Shown piece after piece: positions 48,879-54,758 of a stretch of DNA of 64,000 bases. Source of the DNA: Opitutaceae bacterium (GTDB lineage Bacteria > Verrucomicrobiota > Verrucomicrobiia > Opitutales > Opitutaceae); contig JACSRI010000163.1 of NCBI GenBank assembly GCA_014879845.1, positions 1-64,000 of the forward strand. The letters are read 5' to 3'. The translations under genes were made by a program, and so were the position numbers. The notes beneath the pieces are model-generated. The model saw nothing but the letters and a program-made list of their open reading frames with translations. It was not told the DNA's origin and searched no databases. Position 1 is the first letter of the stretch. Every line of letters begins with the position of its first letter.

Positions 48879-50534
48879 ATGAAAAAAGCCCTGTTTGCGT
48901 TGGTGTTTCTCGCTGTCGTTGGTTTTGGCGTCTGGCGCTGGTGGGACCGTCTCGATCCCAACGCCGGCCAGGGCGCGCCGGCCGCGACGTCGTCTTCGGC
49001 CGCGGTATCCTCGGCTCAGTCCGGCGGGGGCGCGACGGTCGAGGGACTGATCGAGCCGGAGACCGAGGTGCGCGCCCTCGCTGCGCCCGTGCTCTACCAG
49101 ATGAAGGATGGCGTCTTCGACCTCGAGCTGAGCGAGTATGCGGGCTACGCCGGCCTGATCGTCGCCAACGGCGGCCTCGCGCCCTCGGAGGAGAGCTACT
49201 TTTTCAAGAACCACGGCTTCAAGGTCCGCATCACCATCAGTGAGGAGGAGAGTTGGGATGCGCTCAACTCCGGTCGCATCGGCGGCTCGGCAACGACGGT
49301 CGACGTGCTCGCGGTCTACGCCAAGACCTTCCAGGCCGTCGTGCCGGCGCAGATCGGGTTCTCCCGCGGATCCGATGCGATCGTCGTGCTCAACGATATC
49401 AAGCGCGTCAACCAGCTCGCCGGCCGCACGGTCGTGGCCTCGCAGTTCACCGAGGCCGATTTCTTCATCCGCTACCTCGCCTCGGAAGCCGGTCTCGAGG
49501 TGAAGGCGCTCGATGTGGGTGAGGCTCCGGATCCCGAGAAGATCAACCTCGTCTATGCCGAGGATTCCTTCGAGGGCGGCGATCTGTTCGCCCGGCTCAT
49601 CAACGAGGGCCGCACCGACATCGCGGGCGCGGTGTTGTGGGGCTCGAAGATTCAGGAGGTGCTCGAGTCGACCCAGGGCAAGACCCGTGTCCTCGTCGAC
49701 AACCGCAATCTCCTCGTCGTCGCCGACGTGCTCGTGGTCAACAAGCCCTTCGCCCAGGCCAACCCCAAGGTCGTCGAGGGCTTGGTCGACGGCCTGCTCG
49801 CGGGCAACGACATGGTGCGCACCAACCCGGACGCACACCTCGACGTGGTCGCCCGGGCGTTCAAATGGGAATCGCGCGCCCAGACCAAGGTCGAGCTGGC
49901 GCAGATCCACTTCTCGAACCTGCCCGAGAACAAGGCCTTCTTCTCCGGTGCGATCGATGCGGCCGGCAGCTATGCGGGCATCTTCACCTCGGCGATGTTC
50001 GCCTACGGCCCGATCCTCAACCACTCGGTGCCGCCCGAGCGCCAGCTCGACCTCAAGCTCGACGCGCCGTTCGCGGCGAAGTATGCCGCGCAGACCGTCT
50101 CGATTCAGCCGATACGCTCGACCGGCACGCGCTCGATCGAGCAGAATCCGCTGCTCACGCGCGACATCCGGTTCTTCTTCGAGCCGAACTCCGCCGTCCT
50201 CCAGGCCACGCCGGACAACGACAAGAACTACGCCTCGATCAAGCAGCTGCTGCAGGTCGCGCCCGGCTCGACCATCCTGCTGCGCGGCCATGTCGACAAC
50301 ACGATGGTGCCGGAGTTTCGCAAACAGGGCGGCGAGTCGCTCGTGCGTTCCATGGCGCTCAAGGCGATGGAACTCTCCAGGCAGCGCGCCGAGTCGGTGC
50401 GCGTCGAGTTGAAGAAACGCTACCAGCTGCCTGACGCGCGCATGGAGGTGATCGGCCGCGGCTGGGAGGAGCCGGCCGGCAACGACGGCGAGAAGAACCG
50501 GCGCGTCGAGGTGCAGTGGTTCACGGTCGAGTGA
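48879..50534 (+). CDS. Membrane-anchored substrate-binding protein / OmpA-like fusion
   Basis: N-terminal TM; periplasmic-binding-like region; C-term DIRFFFEPNSAVLQ...TILLRGHVDNTMVP...RAESVRVELKKRYQLPDARMEVIGRGWEEPAGNDGEKNRRVEV (OmpA-like). Confidence 0.8.
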   Translation: MKKALFALVFLAVVGFGVWRWWDRLDPNAGQGAPAATSSSAAVSSAQSGGGATVEGLIEPETEVRALAAPVLYQMKDGVFDLELSEYAGYAGLIVANGGLAPSEESYFFKNHGFKVRITISEEESWDALNSGRIGGSATTVDVLAVYAKTFQAVVPAQIGFSRGSDAIVVLNDIKRVNQLAGRTVVASQFTEADFFIRYLASEAGLEVKALDVGEAPDPEKINLVYAEDSFEGGDLFARLINEGRTDIAGAVLWGSKIQEVLESTQGKTRVLVDNRNLLVVADVLVVNKPFAQANPKVVEGLVDGLLAGNDMVRTNPDAHLDVVARAFKWESRAQTKVELAQIHFSNLPENKAFFSGAIDAAGSYAGIFTSAMFAYGPILNHSVPPERQLDLKLDAPFAAKYAAQTVSIQPIRSTGTRSIEQNPLLTRDIRFFFEPNSAVLQATPDNDKNYASIKQLLQVAPGSTILLRGHVDNTMVPEFRKQGGESLVRSMALKAMELSRQRAESVRVELKKRYQLPDARMEVIGRGWEEPAGNDGEKNRRVEVQWFTVE

Positions 50535-50565
50535 AGATCTGGCGATCGAGATTTCCGCGGGTGGG

Positions 50566-50586
50566 GCGGGTTCTCCGAACCCGCCG
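50566..50586. other. Intergenic hairpin within the SBP-OmpA/PspA cassette
   Basis: GGCGGGTT-ctccg-AACCCGCC, 8-bp perfect stem. Confidence 0.5.
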
Positions 50587-50643
50587 CGAATGCCCAGGGA
50601 CGCACGCAGCGGACGCGGGGAGCCGATCCCGCCGACTTCACCC

Positions 50644-51507
50644 ATGACCCGCCTCGGTTACCTCAAGGCCTTTGCCACGAGCTTCACGCATGGCGCGCTC
50701 GCGCTCGCGACGCTCGGTGCGGGCTTCGCCTCGGGTGAGCCGCTCGGCCTTATCGCCGGCGCGACCGTCTATGTGCTCGGCTGGGTGTTCATCGGCGACT
50801 CGCGCTGGTTTCGCCGGCGCGTCGATACGGCGGAATTCGAAAAGCTGGCGCGCGACGAGGAGGCGGCGCTCGCGGGGGTGCGCGCGGAGCGCGACGGCAT
50901 GGTGCGCCGCCTCATTCCGCCCCAGCGCCAGCGTTATGACGCGCTCGTGCAGGTGTGCCGCGACATCGAGGCGCAGCTCGCCAACTCGAACACCTCCGAT
51001 TTCCCCGTCGAAAAGCTCGACGGCCTGATGTGGTCGTTCCTCGGCCTGCTCGGCAACGAGACCAACATCGCCTCCTTCATCGAGCGCGAGATCGACGAGA
51101 AATTCGGTGAGCGCATCCTCGACCTCGAGCCCGAGGTCAAGGCGCTCGAGTCCGCGATGTCCAAGGTCGAGCCCGGCACGTCGGCCTACGAGACGCGCAT
51201 GCAACTCCTCGCCTCCAAACAGGAGGCGCTCGAGGCCCTGCGCAAACGCCACCAGCAGTTCCAGCGCGCCGCGGAGAACCTCGAGTTCGTTCGCGCCGAG
51301 CTCGATCGCATCGAGCAGCAGCTCAAGCTCGTGCGCTCCGATCTCTTCGCCTCCAAGTCCGTCGGCCAGATCAGCCAGCGCGTGAACGACACCATCGACC
51401 AACTTGCCTCGTCGGGCCGATTCAGCTCCGAACTCGCGCCCACGATCAAAGAGATGCCGGCCTTCAAGACCCGCCGCGTCGGCTACAAGCTCCAGAGCGA
51501 GGCCTGA
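50644..51507 (+). CDS. Membrane protein with N-terminal TM segments and long coiled coil
   Basis: MTRLGYLKAFATSFTHGALALATLGAGFASGEPLGLIAGATVYVLGWVFIGDSRWF followed by helical heptad-rich region. Confidence 0.65.
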   Translation: MTRLGYLKAFATSFTHGALALATLGAGFASGEPLGLIAGATVYVLGWVFIGDSRWFRRRVDTAEFEKLARDEEAALAGVRAERDGMVRRLIPPQRQRYDALVQVCRDIEAQLANSNTSDFPVEKLDGLMWSFLGLLGNETNIASFIEREIDEKFGERILDLEPEVKALESAMSKVEPGTSAYETRMQLLASKQEALEALRKRHQQFQRAAENLEFVRAELDRIEQQLKLVRSDLFASKSVGQISQRVNDTIDQLASSGRFSSELAPTIKEMPAFKTRRVGYKLQSEA

Positions 51508-51552
51508 GCCTCGCGCATCCTTTCGCCCCTCAACCACCAACGCCGCCACACC

Positions 51553-52308
51553 ATGTCGCTCTTCGCACGCCTCTATAACCAGATCCGCGGACGCATCAGC
51601 CTGTTCTTCAGCTCGATGGAGTTTCGCAATCCCGAGGTGCTCCTCGAAAACGCCAAGGAGGACCTCAAGGCCAACCGCATCCGCATGCAAAACGGCGTCG
51701 CCCAGATGGCCGCCGTCTCCGAGCGGCTCAAGCGCCAGATCGCCGACGGCGAACGCCGCAAACAGGACCTCGAGGGCCGCGTCATGGTCATGTACAACGC
51801 GGGCAAAGAGGAACTCGCCGCCGAACTCGCCGAGCAGCTCCAGCAGGTCGAGAACGACCTCGCGGAAAACAAGGCCGAGTTCGACCACAACGAACAGGCC
51901 TACAAGGAGTTCGTCGGCGCGTGTCAGACCGTCGAGAAGGAGACGCGCAAGAAGATCGAGAAACTCACCGCCAGCCTCTCCAAGGCCAAGGCGAAGGAGG
52001 CGATGGCCGACGTCTCGGAAATGCTCTCCGGCACGGTCACTCAGCAAAGCGCCTCGCTCGAGAACATGTCGCGTCTCGAGGAAGTGGTGACGGAGAAGCT
52101 CGACAAGGCCTCCGGCCGCCTGCGCGCCGCGCAGGACTCCTCGCAGTTCACCGACATCAAGCTCAAGCAGCAGGAGCAGGAGATCTCGAAGAAGGCCGCG
52201 CTCGCGAATTTCCTCGCCCGCAAGAACATCGCCATGGCTCCGAAGGAAGGCGCCGCCGCCGCGCCCGCCACCCCGGCCGAAAAGCCAAAGCTCGGCGAGT
52301 CAGCCTGA
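51553..52308 (+). CDS. PspA/IM30 (Vipp1) family protein
   Basis: MSLFARLYNQIRGRISLFFSSMEFRNPEVLLENAKEDLKANRIRMQNGVAQMAAVSERLKRQIADGERRKQDLEGRV; all-helical PspA-like layout. Confidence 0.78.
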   Translation: MSLFARLYNQIRGRISLFFSSMEFRNPEVLLENAKEDLKANRIRMQNGVAQMAAVSERLKRQIADGERRKQDLEGRVMVMYNAGKEELAAELAEQLQQVENDLAENKAEFDHNEQAYKEFVGACQTVEKETRKKIEKLTASLSKAKAKEAMADVSEMLSGTVTQQSASLENMSRLEEVVTEKLDKASGRLRAAQDSSQFTDIKLKQQEQEISKKAALANFLARKNIAMAPKEGAAAAPATPAEKPKLGESA

Positions 52309-52317
52309 GATGTTGAA

Positions 52318-52463
52318 CCACGGATGGACACGGATGCACACGGATCACCGATCCTGATTGGCTCGGGAAGCAGTGCATCCGGTAGAGTCGCCGCGATCGA
52401 TTGAGCGGTCGTACCCCCAATTCTGGACTTCATTCATCTGTGTCCATTCGTGTTCATCCGTGG
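52318..52463. repeat. Inverted repeat with 3 x 10-nt periodic arms between pspA-like and AAA+ genes
   Basis: Left ccacggatgg/acacggatgc/acacggatca (52318-52347); right arm reverse complement ccacggatga/acacgaatgg/acacagatga (52434-52463); 25/30 identical. Confidence 0.8.
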
Positions 52464-52479
52464 TTAACCCCCTTCCCGC

Positions 52480-54180
52480 ATGGCATCCTGGATCAACGAA
52501 CTTGAATCGCTCTACGCCTCCGAGGCGGCCTGTCAGTTCATCCTGCACGGCAATGTGCAGGATGTCTTCTGGCACGGCGCGGATGCCAAGGCCGCGGGCC
52601 TCGTGCCGCCGGCGGCTGCGAAGTCCGTTTCGGCTCCACGCGGACCGCTCGCCGAGTATCACGACCTCGACGAGTTCCTCGTGCGCCGCCTGCTCGGAGG
52701 ATTCACGGTCATCGTCGAACTCGACCTCGCTCACGGCATCGACATCCGCCGCGGGCGCGAGGTCCTGGAGGGGTGGGATGGGCTCGCCTCGCTGCGCGAC
52801 CTGCGGGCCTCGCCGATGGAGTATCTCTCGGCGCTGCGCCGGCTCTTCCTCTTCCTGAACAACCTGGCGGTTTCCGAGCGCCGGCCCGTGCATGTCGCGG
52901 CGATTCTGCGCGACGCGCACATGCTTGTGCCGGGCGATGCCGGCAACCTGCAGTTCGACCTCGGCGCCGGCGCCTCGCTGGTGCGTGAGTGGTCTCGGCC
53001 ATCCACGCACGAGTGGTTCAGCCTCACGACCTTCCTGCTCGCGGAAAATCTCAGCGACCTGCACGTGATGGTGCGCAACAATCCGCTGGCGGCGGCGCTC
53101 ACCGTGGGCCTGCCGGGCGAGGAGGATCTCGTCGCGGACCTGACGCGCCTCGCGACGGTTTTTCCCGGCAGCCTCGGCGAGTATGAGAAGAGTCCCGACA
53201 CGCTCGCGCGCAAGCTGCGCGGACTCACGCGCAACTCGCTCGTCAGCCTCCTGCGCCGGCGCACGCACGCGAAGAAGCCCCTCGATCAGGCAGCCGTCAG
53301 TGCGTTGCGCAAGGAGCTGGTCGAGCGCGACAGTTCGGCGCTCGTGGAGTTCGTGGAATCGAAGGTCACGCTCGACGACTATCACGGCCAGCCGCAGCTC
53401 GTGGACGCCGTGCGCACGGACCTGAAGCTCATGCGCGAGGGCGTGACCAAGGCCGTGCCGATGGGCTACCTCGTCGCCGGGCCGGTCGGCACGGGAAAGA
53501 CCTACCTCGTCAACTGCATCGCGGGCGAGGCGCAGCTGCCGGTCATCGTGCTGAAGAATTTCCGCGACCGCTGGGTCGGCAGCTCCGAGAGCAACCTCGA
53601 GAAAATTTTCCGGCTCATTGGCGCGGTGGGCGAGTGCGTGGTCTTCATCGACGAGGCCGACCAGACGCTGGGGCGCCGCAGCGGTGCCGATTCGTCGAGC
53701 GACGTCAACGGTCGGCTCTACTCCATGCTCGCGCAGTTCATGGCCGACCAGAACAACCGCGGCCGCGTGCTCTGGGTGCTCGCCACCTCGCGGCCCGATC
53801 TCGTCGAGGTGGATCTCAAGCGCCCGGGTCGTGTCGATCGGCGCCTGCCGGTGCTGCCCGCCTTCGAGCTGAAGGACCGCTGGGCCATGCTGCGCGGTGT
53901 GTTCAAGCGCTTCGGCCTCGAGCTGCCAGGCGAGTGCCCGGCCGACCTCGAGCCGCCGGAACTGCTCACGGCCGGCGCCGCCACGGCGCTGGCGAGCGCC
54001 GTCTATCGCCAGCACCACATCAGCCAGGCGCCGGCGCTGGACCTCTTGCGCCAGCAACTCGCGAACTACATGCCGCCTGTGCCGATTTCCCGGATACGCG
54101 AGCAGATCAAGCTCGCGATCGAAGACACGAGCGATTTGGCGCTGTTGCCGGAAGGCTTGCGCAAGGAGTTGGCGGGGTAG
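52480..54180 (+). CDS. AAA+ family ATPase
   Basis: Walker A LVAGPVGTGKTYLVNC, Walker B ECVVFIDEADQTLG, LATSRPDLVEVDLKRPGRVDRRLPV. Confidence 0.92.
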   Translation: MASWINELESLYASEAACQFILHGNVQDVFWHGADAKAAGLVPPAAAKSVSAPRGPLAEYHDLDEFLVRRLLGGFTVIVELDLAHGIDIRRGREVLEGWDGLASLRDLRASPMEYLSALRRLFLFLNNLAVSERRPVHVAAILRDAHMLVPGDAGNLQFDLGAGASLVREWSRPSTHEWFSLTTFLLAENLSDLHVMVRNNPLAAALTVGLPGEEDLVADLTRLATVFPGSLGEYEKSPDTLARKLRGLTRNSLVSLLRRRTHAKKPLDQAAVSALRKELVERDSSALVEFVESKVTLDDYHGQPQLVDAVRTDLKLMREGVTKAVPMGYLVAGPVGTGKTYLVNCIAGEAQLPVIVLKNFRDRWVGSSESNLEKIFRLIGAVGECVVFIDEADQTLGRRSGADSSSDVNGRLYSMLAQFMADQNNRGRVLWVLATSRPDLVEVDLKRPGRVDRRLPVLPAFELKDRWAMLRGVFKRFGLELPGECPADLEPPELLTAGAATALASAVYRQHHISQAPALDLLRQQLANYMPPVPISRIREQIKLAIEDTSDLALLPEGLRKELAG

Positions 54181-54278: not shown

Positions 54279-54758
54279 TCACGTGGGCCGAGGCCCATCG
54301 TCGACCAGATCGTCGCGCCACTGCAGCCACGCATGCGGCCAGTCTCCGGGACAGGTGACGAGCTTGGCGCGAACCGGGTTGTTGAGGATATAGCGGATCT
54401 TCTCATCCGCCGACTCATCCGACCGCAGTCGATGGTCGAAGAATCCGGTCTGCTACCTGATGCCGACGGCTTTCGCCTGGTAGCCTTTCCATGTGGAAAT
54501 TGTTGCTTGGAGCGATTGGCCGGCCGGCACACTCAACAAGGCGTGCAGGTGGTCTGGCATGAGCAGAATGACATCCAGCCACCAGCGACCGATATGGTGA
54601 TAGTGAACCGCGTTGCGTAGGACCGCGGGCGCGACGGTCGGTAGCGTGAGGACGCTGGTGCTGCGATCAGCGGCGCAGATCGTGATGAAGAATCGTGACC
54701 CTGCCCCCACCCAACCTGGTGGCGTGTGGTGGAGGCGTCGGCGTTCGGGCAGGGGCAC
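54279..54758 (-). pseudogene. REP-associated transposase (RAYT / IS200-like Y1), interrupted by in-frame TAG
   Basis: Reverse strand: ...SRFFITICAADRS...HYHHIGRWWLDVILLMPDHLHALLSVPAGQSLQATISTWKGYQAKAVGIR*QTGFFDHRLRSDESADEKIRYILNNPVRAKLVTCPGDWPHAWLQWRDDL; stop at 54453-54455, same frame continues to TGA at 54279. Confidence 0.87.

Follow-up and report, generated by a model that had tools for sequence, protein, structure and literature searches.

A divergent PspA-family protein and a tandem AAA+ ATPase form the core of a candidate membrane-remodelling cassette in an Opitutaceae bacterium

Four genes occupy positions 48879-54180 of the DNA analysed here, a 64,000-nucleotide stretch from an Opitutaceae bacterium (contig JACSRI010000163.1) that we refer to as the window. 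They encode a fusion of a substrate-binding protein to an OmpA-type domain (SBP-OmpA), a coiled-coil protein with two transmembrane segments (two-TM protein), a protein of the PspA/IM30 family, and a tandem AAA+ ATPase (Table 1). The open reading frame (ORF) calls place all four on one strand, as an earlier note on this DNA had described (here the + strand), with intergenic gaps of 109, 45, and 171 bp in gene order. The longest ORF of gene 2 opens at 50590; we took the ATG at 50644 as its start, because the homologues align from there and not from 50590. The source genome contains one PF04012 protein and one full-length SBP-OmpA of the window type. What our analysis adds to prior work is a tight, subfamily-specific pairing of the PspA-family protein with the ATPase.

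Table 1. Features of the four-gene cassette (nucleotide positions are those of the window; aa, amino acids)
Feature	Position	Strand	Basis or remark
SBP-OmpA fusion gene (gene 1)	48879..50534	+	551 aa
N-terminal TM anchor	about aa 1-22 of 48879..50534	+	hydropathy peak aa 1-19
NMT1/SsuA-like substrate-binding region	aa 108-319 of 48879..50534	+	Pfam PF09084
C-terminal OmpA peptidoglycan-binding-type domain	aa 433-543 of 48879..50534	+	Pfam PF00691
Two-TM coiled-coil protein gene (gene 2)	50644..51507	+	287 aa; family absent from Pfam
PspA/IM30 gene (gene 3)	51553..52308	+	251 aa; divergent AAA-linked subfamily
Low-complexity tail at the C terminus of PspA, with KLGESA at its end; candidate tag for recruiting the ATPase	52264..52305	+	motif comparison
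Tandem AAA+ ATPase gene (gene 4)	52480..54180	+	566 aa
Degenerate first AAA copy	about aa 1-245 of 52480..54180	+	fold match to Cdc48-type first copy
Active-type second AAA copy	about aa 295-560 of 52480..54180	+	PF00004
Walker A GPVGTGKT, second AAA copy	53479..53502	+	alignment
Pore-loop aromatic Trp365 in DRWVGSSE	53572..53574	+	alignment
Walker B VVFIDEAD, second AAA copy	53638..53661	+	alignment

An AlphaFold model of the ATPase, built on 19 homologues (mean predicted local distance difference test [pLDDT] score 82), matched Rix7, p97, Cdc48, NVL, and AFG2 along its full length, across about 600 alignment columns, with E values of about 1e-19 (Foldseek). By this model the protein is predicted to be two AAA folds in series, of the Cdc48/NVL/Rix7 type. 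Pfam recognises the C-terminal domain (89.8 bits), and the alignment confirmed the intact Walker motifs read there previously. All 27 homologues keep Walker A, Walker B, sensor 1, an Arg-containing segment, and an aromatic pore-loop residue (W in 26, Y in the remaining one) in the second copy. At the expected P-loop position of the first copy there is instead a conserved GN sequence (mostly HGN), and Walker B DE is missing. Walker A and B are thus confined to the second copy in 27/27 homologues, whereas a protein of the Cdc48/NVL type would be expected to carry them in both; nor does a separate N-domain precede the two folds, as it does in the Cdc48/p97, NVL/Rix7, and AFG2 proteins. The features retained in the second copy, among them the Arg residues and the pore-loop Trp, are those of translocating AAA+ proteins, and the ATPase has the equipment of a threading motor.

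Vps4 dismantles eukaryotic and archaeal ESCRT-III polymers, and the alignment contains the motifs expected of the active AAA core and aromatic pore loop of that family. We nevertheless rejected membership of the Vps4 family, because no MIT domain was detected in the ATPase by Pfam and its N-terminal half is predicted to fold as a first AAA copy. The parallel with Vps4 drawn in the earlier note therefore holds as a comparison of function and not as one of architecture. Common to this cassette and to ESCRT-III/Vps4 (CdvB/CdvC) are the pairing of an ESCRT-III superfamily polymer protein with a Trp-pore-loop AAA ATPase and a short motif at the C terminus of the putative substrate; they differ in that the ATPase of the window is a tandem AAA protein with a dead first copy, and Vps4 has a single AAA domain and a MIT domain.

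We compared the neighbourhoods of 39 loci recovered with gene 1 in a scan of a genome collection, together with loci from whole-genome searches. Orthologues of the cassette genes cluster repeatedly across Verrucomicrobia and in records labelled Planctomycetota, Acidobacteria, and Fermentibacteria, so the conserved co-occurrence on which the earlier proposal hung was found. The ATPase tree splits into type A, which covers the first two of five arrangements, and type B, which covers the remainder, with the ATPase of G445 on a long branch. In arrangement i (L038, L039, L040, and L072-L074), the order is VWA, a divergent PspA (PspA'), SBP-OmpA, permease, ATP-binding cassette (ABC) ATPase, two-TM protein, and AAA. 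Arrangement ii (loci such as L010, L018, L021, and L051-L053) consists of PspA', SBP-OmpA, two-TM protein, and AAA, often with VWA and without ABC genes. Arrangement iii, found in the window and in G013 (L048), runs SBP-OmpA, two-TM protein, PspA, AAA; in G055 the two-TM gene and PspA share a contig and AAA lies on a different one, and an Acidobacteria-labelled record (L037) has the order two-TM protein, AAA, PspA, SBP-OmpA. Arrangement iv comprises dispersed units (G253, G325, and G380). In arrangement v (G423, L156), PspA and AAA stand alone as a pair separated by 35 bp, and neither an SBP gene nor a two-TM gene adjoins them.

Other genes accompany some of these loci. Type A operons open with a lipoprotein-like VWA protein (PF00092; for example, L039:5425-6171 and L038:1397-2170), which is lacking from the window and is not mentioned in the text on the operon in PMC11237479. 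G014 (L050, 1-6137) combines AAA with a rhomboid protease, a two-TM gene, and an SBP-OmpA whose frame is broken, and no PF04012 PspA was detected in this genome. Another rhomboid-like gene is found close to AAA in G055 (L049:5908-7038). In G445 (L161), an SsuB-like ABC ATPase, a two-TM protein, and a NOV_C-domain protein accompany the divergent AAA.

Literature searches for the four-gene combination returned a single match, Ravi et al. (2024; PMC11237479). Section 18 of that paper describes one operon (example, OGG56892.1) in which PspA and a TM-bearing Snf7 homolog occur with an ABC transporter, a PBPB-OmpA protein, and an AAA+ protein whose N-terminal copy is inactive, and it already proposes ATP-dependent membrane remodelling comparable to that by Snf7 and Vps4. 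The gene combination itself, whose novelty had been left to be checked, is therefore not new. Like the operon in that section, the window combines a PspA-type protein, an AAA+ protein with an inactive N-terminal copy, a solute- and peptidoglycan-binding fusion, and a TM-bearing helical protein. It differs in having no ABC ATPase or permease, which the section gives for some members and which were not found in the 19 kb that surround the cassette (L075); in its PspA, which is PF04012-positive and sits between the two-TM gene and the ATPase; in its two-TM protein, which has no detectable similarity to ESCRT-III; and in having no VWA gene.

Co-inheritance was assessed in 388 genomes sampled evenly from the phylum of the source organism; the Fisher tests ignore relatedness, and the p values are descriptive. 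The ATPase was present in 15 genomes, the two-TM protein in 11, SBP-OmpA in 12, and PF04012 in 51. Every genome with the two-TM protein also had the ATPase (11/11, p 2e-18), and PF04012 PspA was found in 9/10 genomes with a type B ATPase and in 42/378 others (p 5e-8; 4e-7 when the source genome was omitted). Pairwise p values spanned 5e-8 to 2e-18, which together with the clustering of orthologues in many genomes indicates an association beyond chance. If these were simply stress genes that lie loosely together and share no mechanism, the variable gene order and the dispersed units would be accounted for, but this reading sits poorly with these co-occurrence statistics, even uncorrected for relatedness, and with the repeated clustering in Verrucomicrobia and in the records with other labels, and we regard it as very improbable.

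Four genomes (G311, G314, G317, and G423) have the ATPase and PspA; at the thresholds used, the two-TM protein and SBP-OmpA are both missing from them. Because these genomes keep both proteins without the other two, PspA and the ATPase are the core of the system, and SBP-OmpA and the two-TM protein are accessory. The same genomes bear on another explanation, in which the ATPase would serve as a Cdc48/NVL-like chaperone that helps to assemble or turn over the coiled-coil and SBP-OmpA membrane proteins, with PspA as a recruiting scaffold and not a substrate. The resemblance of the ATPase fold to Cdc48 and NVL is consistent with such a role, as is the finding that in the phylum sample the two-TM protein never occurs without the ATPase. 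However, the proposed clients are missing from the four genomes, and in G423, with its two-gene form, PspA is the only partner linked to the ATPase. We consider a chaperone role unlikely.

The two-TM protein itself matched no Pfam family. It has two hydrophobic segments, which correspond to helices at aa 14-30 and 33-51 in an AlphaFold model (pLDDT 91.6; alignment A1 of 23 homologues) and are followed by long helices, the longest at aa 180-235, in agreement with the TM segments and long coiled coil first read from the sequence. Comparison with PspA profiles gave probabilities of 0.3% and 0.1% (hhalign), and no ESCRT-III chain was among the 50 Foldseek matches listed, which were coiled-coil, BAR-like, and similar helical proteins (best E 0.24). 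On these negative results we rejected its identification as a TM-anchored ESCRT-III/Snf7 protein. If it corresponds to the "Snf7 homolog" with a TM segment in section 18 of Ravi et al. (PMC11237479), then that label lacks support from the profile and fold tests. A match to pneumococcal surface protein A was dismissed as coiled-coil noise, as only the abbreviation PspA is in common.

The assignment of gene 3 to the PspA/IM30 family was upheld: it matches PF04012 with 56.7 bits (cut-off 33.9), covering positions 1-218 of the 220 in the profile, and a profile built from its family recovered solved Vipp1/IM30 structures (E 5e-7). The PspA' proteins of the type A operons are more divergent, and only 8/21 have a Pfam PspA match at E 0.01. 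Type A genomes show no PF04012 above threshold and yet have PspA' in the same cluster, and a profile comparison with the window-type PspA gave 96% probability (hhalign), a value that coiled-coil composition may inflate. In a PspA tree, the ATPase-linked PspAs of types A and B, plus two from genus g80, separate from the other PspAs of the phylum with support of 91/90; this tree holds only the nearer outgroups, because the type B profile missed most canonical PspAs.

The ATPase-linked PspAs also have distinctive C termini. In 12/12 type B proteins, a low-complexity linker leads into a short [MLI][GS][PEQ] motif close to the C terminus (KLGESA in the window; TMGPVSQ, KEIGPER, and TMGQAEG in others). 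The motif is absent from both PspAs of the same subfamily in AAA-less genomes, a comparison in which it was scored on the very sequences from which it was derived and which offers few independent contrasts. PspA' proteins have a conserved Q(K/R)I ending in 21/21, preceded by a similar linker. ESCRT-III proteins carry C-terminal MIT-interacting motifs (MIMs), and by analogy with these we regard the PspA tail motifs as candidate recruitment tags.

In SBP-OmpA, PF09084 and PF00691 both exceed the Pfam cut-off, with a partial match to the SsuA family, and a single hydrophobic segment lies at the N terminus; the earlier description of an anchor, an SBP-like region, and an OmpA domain was correct. 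The Asp (GHVDN) and Arg (LSRQRA) of the OmpA motif are conserved in 52/53 rows, which predicts peptidoglycan binding. Remodelling might be coupled to transport, as in Ravi et al. (PMC11237479), such that the SBP feeds an SsuBC-like ABC transporter while PspA and AAA maintain the surrounding membrane. Permease and ATPase genes do lie inside the operons of arrangement i, and the source genome has SsuBC-like pairs (SsuC-like permease and ATPase) at other loci. However, the ABC-linked SBP-OmpA proteins form one clade (100% support in a Shimodaira-Hasegawa-like approximate likelihood ratio test [SH-aLRT]), and the flanking DNA retrieved for the 47 members of the other clade, which includes the window protein, yielded no relative of the linked permease, some of these flanks being short. 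Moreover, at least one transporter of the source genome (at C51) appears to adjoin an SBP of its own. We therefore judge coupling to a transporter decidedly unlikely. Because no transporter is linked to it at this locus and ABC genes accompany only a clade other than its own, this SBP-OmpA more likely senses or tethers than takes part in transport, and the idea that it shares a distant transporter of the source genome fits less well.

SBP-OmpA has other neighbours elsewhere. In several Planctomycetota- or Phycisphaerae-labelled records, it has a cleavable-looking signal sequence and adjoins two coiled-coil proteins. In Planctomycetota-labelled L017 (5315-6852) and L011 (6124-6909), it is preceded by tandem coiled-coil proteins, single-pass or lipoprotein-like, that belong to no known family, which suggests that this SBP-OmpA serves as a module and is combined with one helical partner or another.

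On balance, the cassette probably encodes a bacterial ESCRT-III-type membrane-remodelling unit with its own motor. The analysis established the gene content, the one intact active site in the predicted tandem AAA fold, the subfamily-specific co-inheritance of PspA and the ATPase, the adjacent two-gene form, the shared tail motif, and the absence of ABC genes from the locus. The putative PspA-based machine with a dedicated ATPase proposed in the earlier note is well supported by phyletic and synteny data. As in its family, the PspA protein would polymerise on the cytoplasmic face of the inner membrane. The tandem AAA+ protein would assemble as a hexamer in which ATP is hydrolysed by the second ring, the first being either a catalytically dead scaffold or a substrate-recognition ring. 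The ATPase may bind the loose C-terminal tail of its own PspA, thread subunits from the polymer, and recycle or remodel the coat, and such disassembly of PspA polymers is supported by genomic context. The two-TM protein could be a membrane anchor or adaptor for the cytoplasmic PspA-ATPase pair, and the anchored SBP-OmpA could reach from the inner membrane to the peptidoglycan and report or hold the periplasmic state.

A more specific proposal is that this is a true bacterial functional counterpart of ESCRT-III/Vps4, in which a tandem AAA motor, of a class other than Vps4, reads a short C-terminal motif of one PspA subfamily and disassembles its polymer, motor and motif being gained or lost together. 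We hold this to be possible but somewhat doubtful. The subfamily-specific pairing makes it directly testable: the subfamily-linked motor in the two-gene form of G423 is a small purifiable system for asking whether disassembly in bacteria is the task of an ATPase dedicated to it, and the common tail motif is a residue-level prediction for ATPase recruitment.

The classical Psp/Vipp1/Lia systems share a PspA/IM30 family protein with the window locus, which lacks PspB, PspC, and PspF and has a dedicated AAA+ protein of a class other than PspF. Several observations weigh against a remodelling unit with its own motor. A 2024 structural study reported that PspA itself hydrolyses ATP weakly and that PspF, the only AAA+ protein of the classical Psp systems, does not appear essential for remodelling by PspA (PMC11746142). 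The PspA subfamily also occurs where the ATPase is lacking, in G092 and G137, which belong to one genus (L188:7912-8661 and L189:7475-8218); the tails of these two PspAs differ, and the tail contrast depends on this one AAA-less genus. Linkage is not universal, because the units lie at separate loci in G253, G325, and G380. Finally, G445 has its divergent ATPase without a detected PF04012 PspA.

Two further roles or settings for the cassette were rejected. A search of plasmids at E 1e-50 found no relative of the ATPase, which argues against plasmid carriage, and a function in anti-phage defence was suggested only by weak AAA-core matches to IetA and by coiled-coil matches.

Between the PspA and AAA genes, at 52316-52465, lies a 30-nt inverted repeat of the ACCACGGATGGACACGGATG type, with arms that are 87% complementary and 90 nt apart. 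It looks like a repetitive extragenic palindrome (REP), and no second copy of this type was found anywhere else within the window. Because the 171-bp gap before the ATPase gene holds this REP-like palindrome, co-transcription of that gene with the rest of the cassette is only assumed; a promoter scan gave no signal exceeding that of shuffled sequences. Just downstream of the cassette, short overlapping ORFs on the minus strand (54453-54758; RWWLDVILLMPDHLHALL-type sequence) resemble a disrupted gene for a REP-associated tyrosine transposase.

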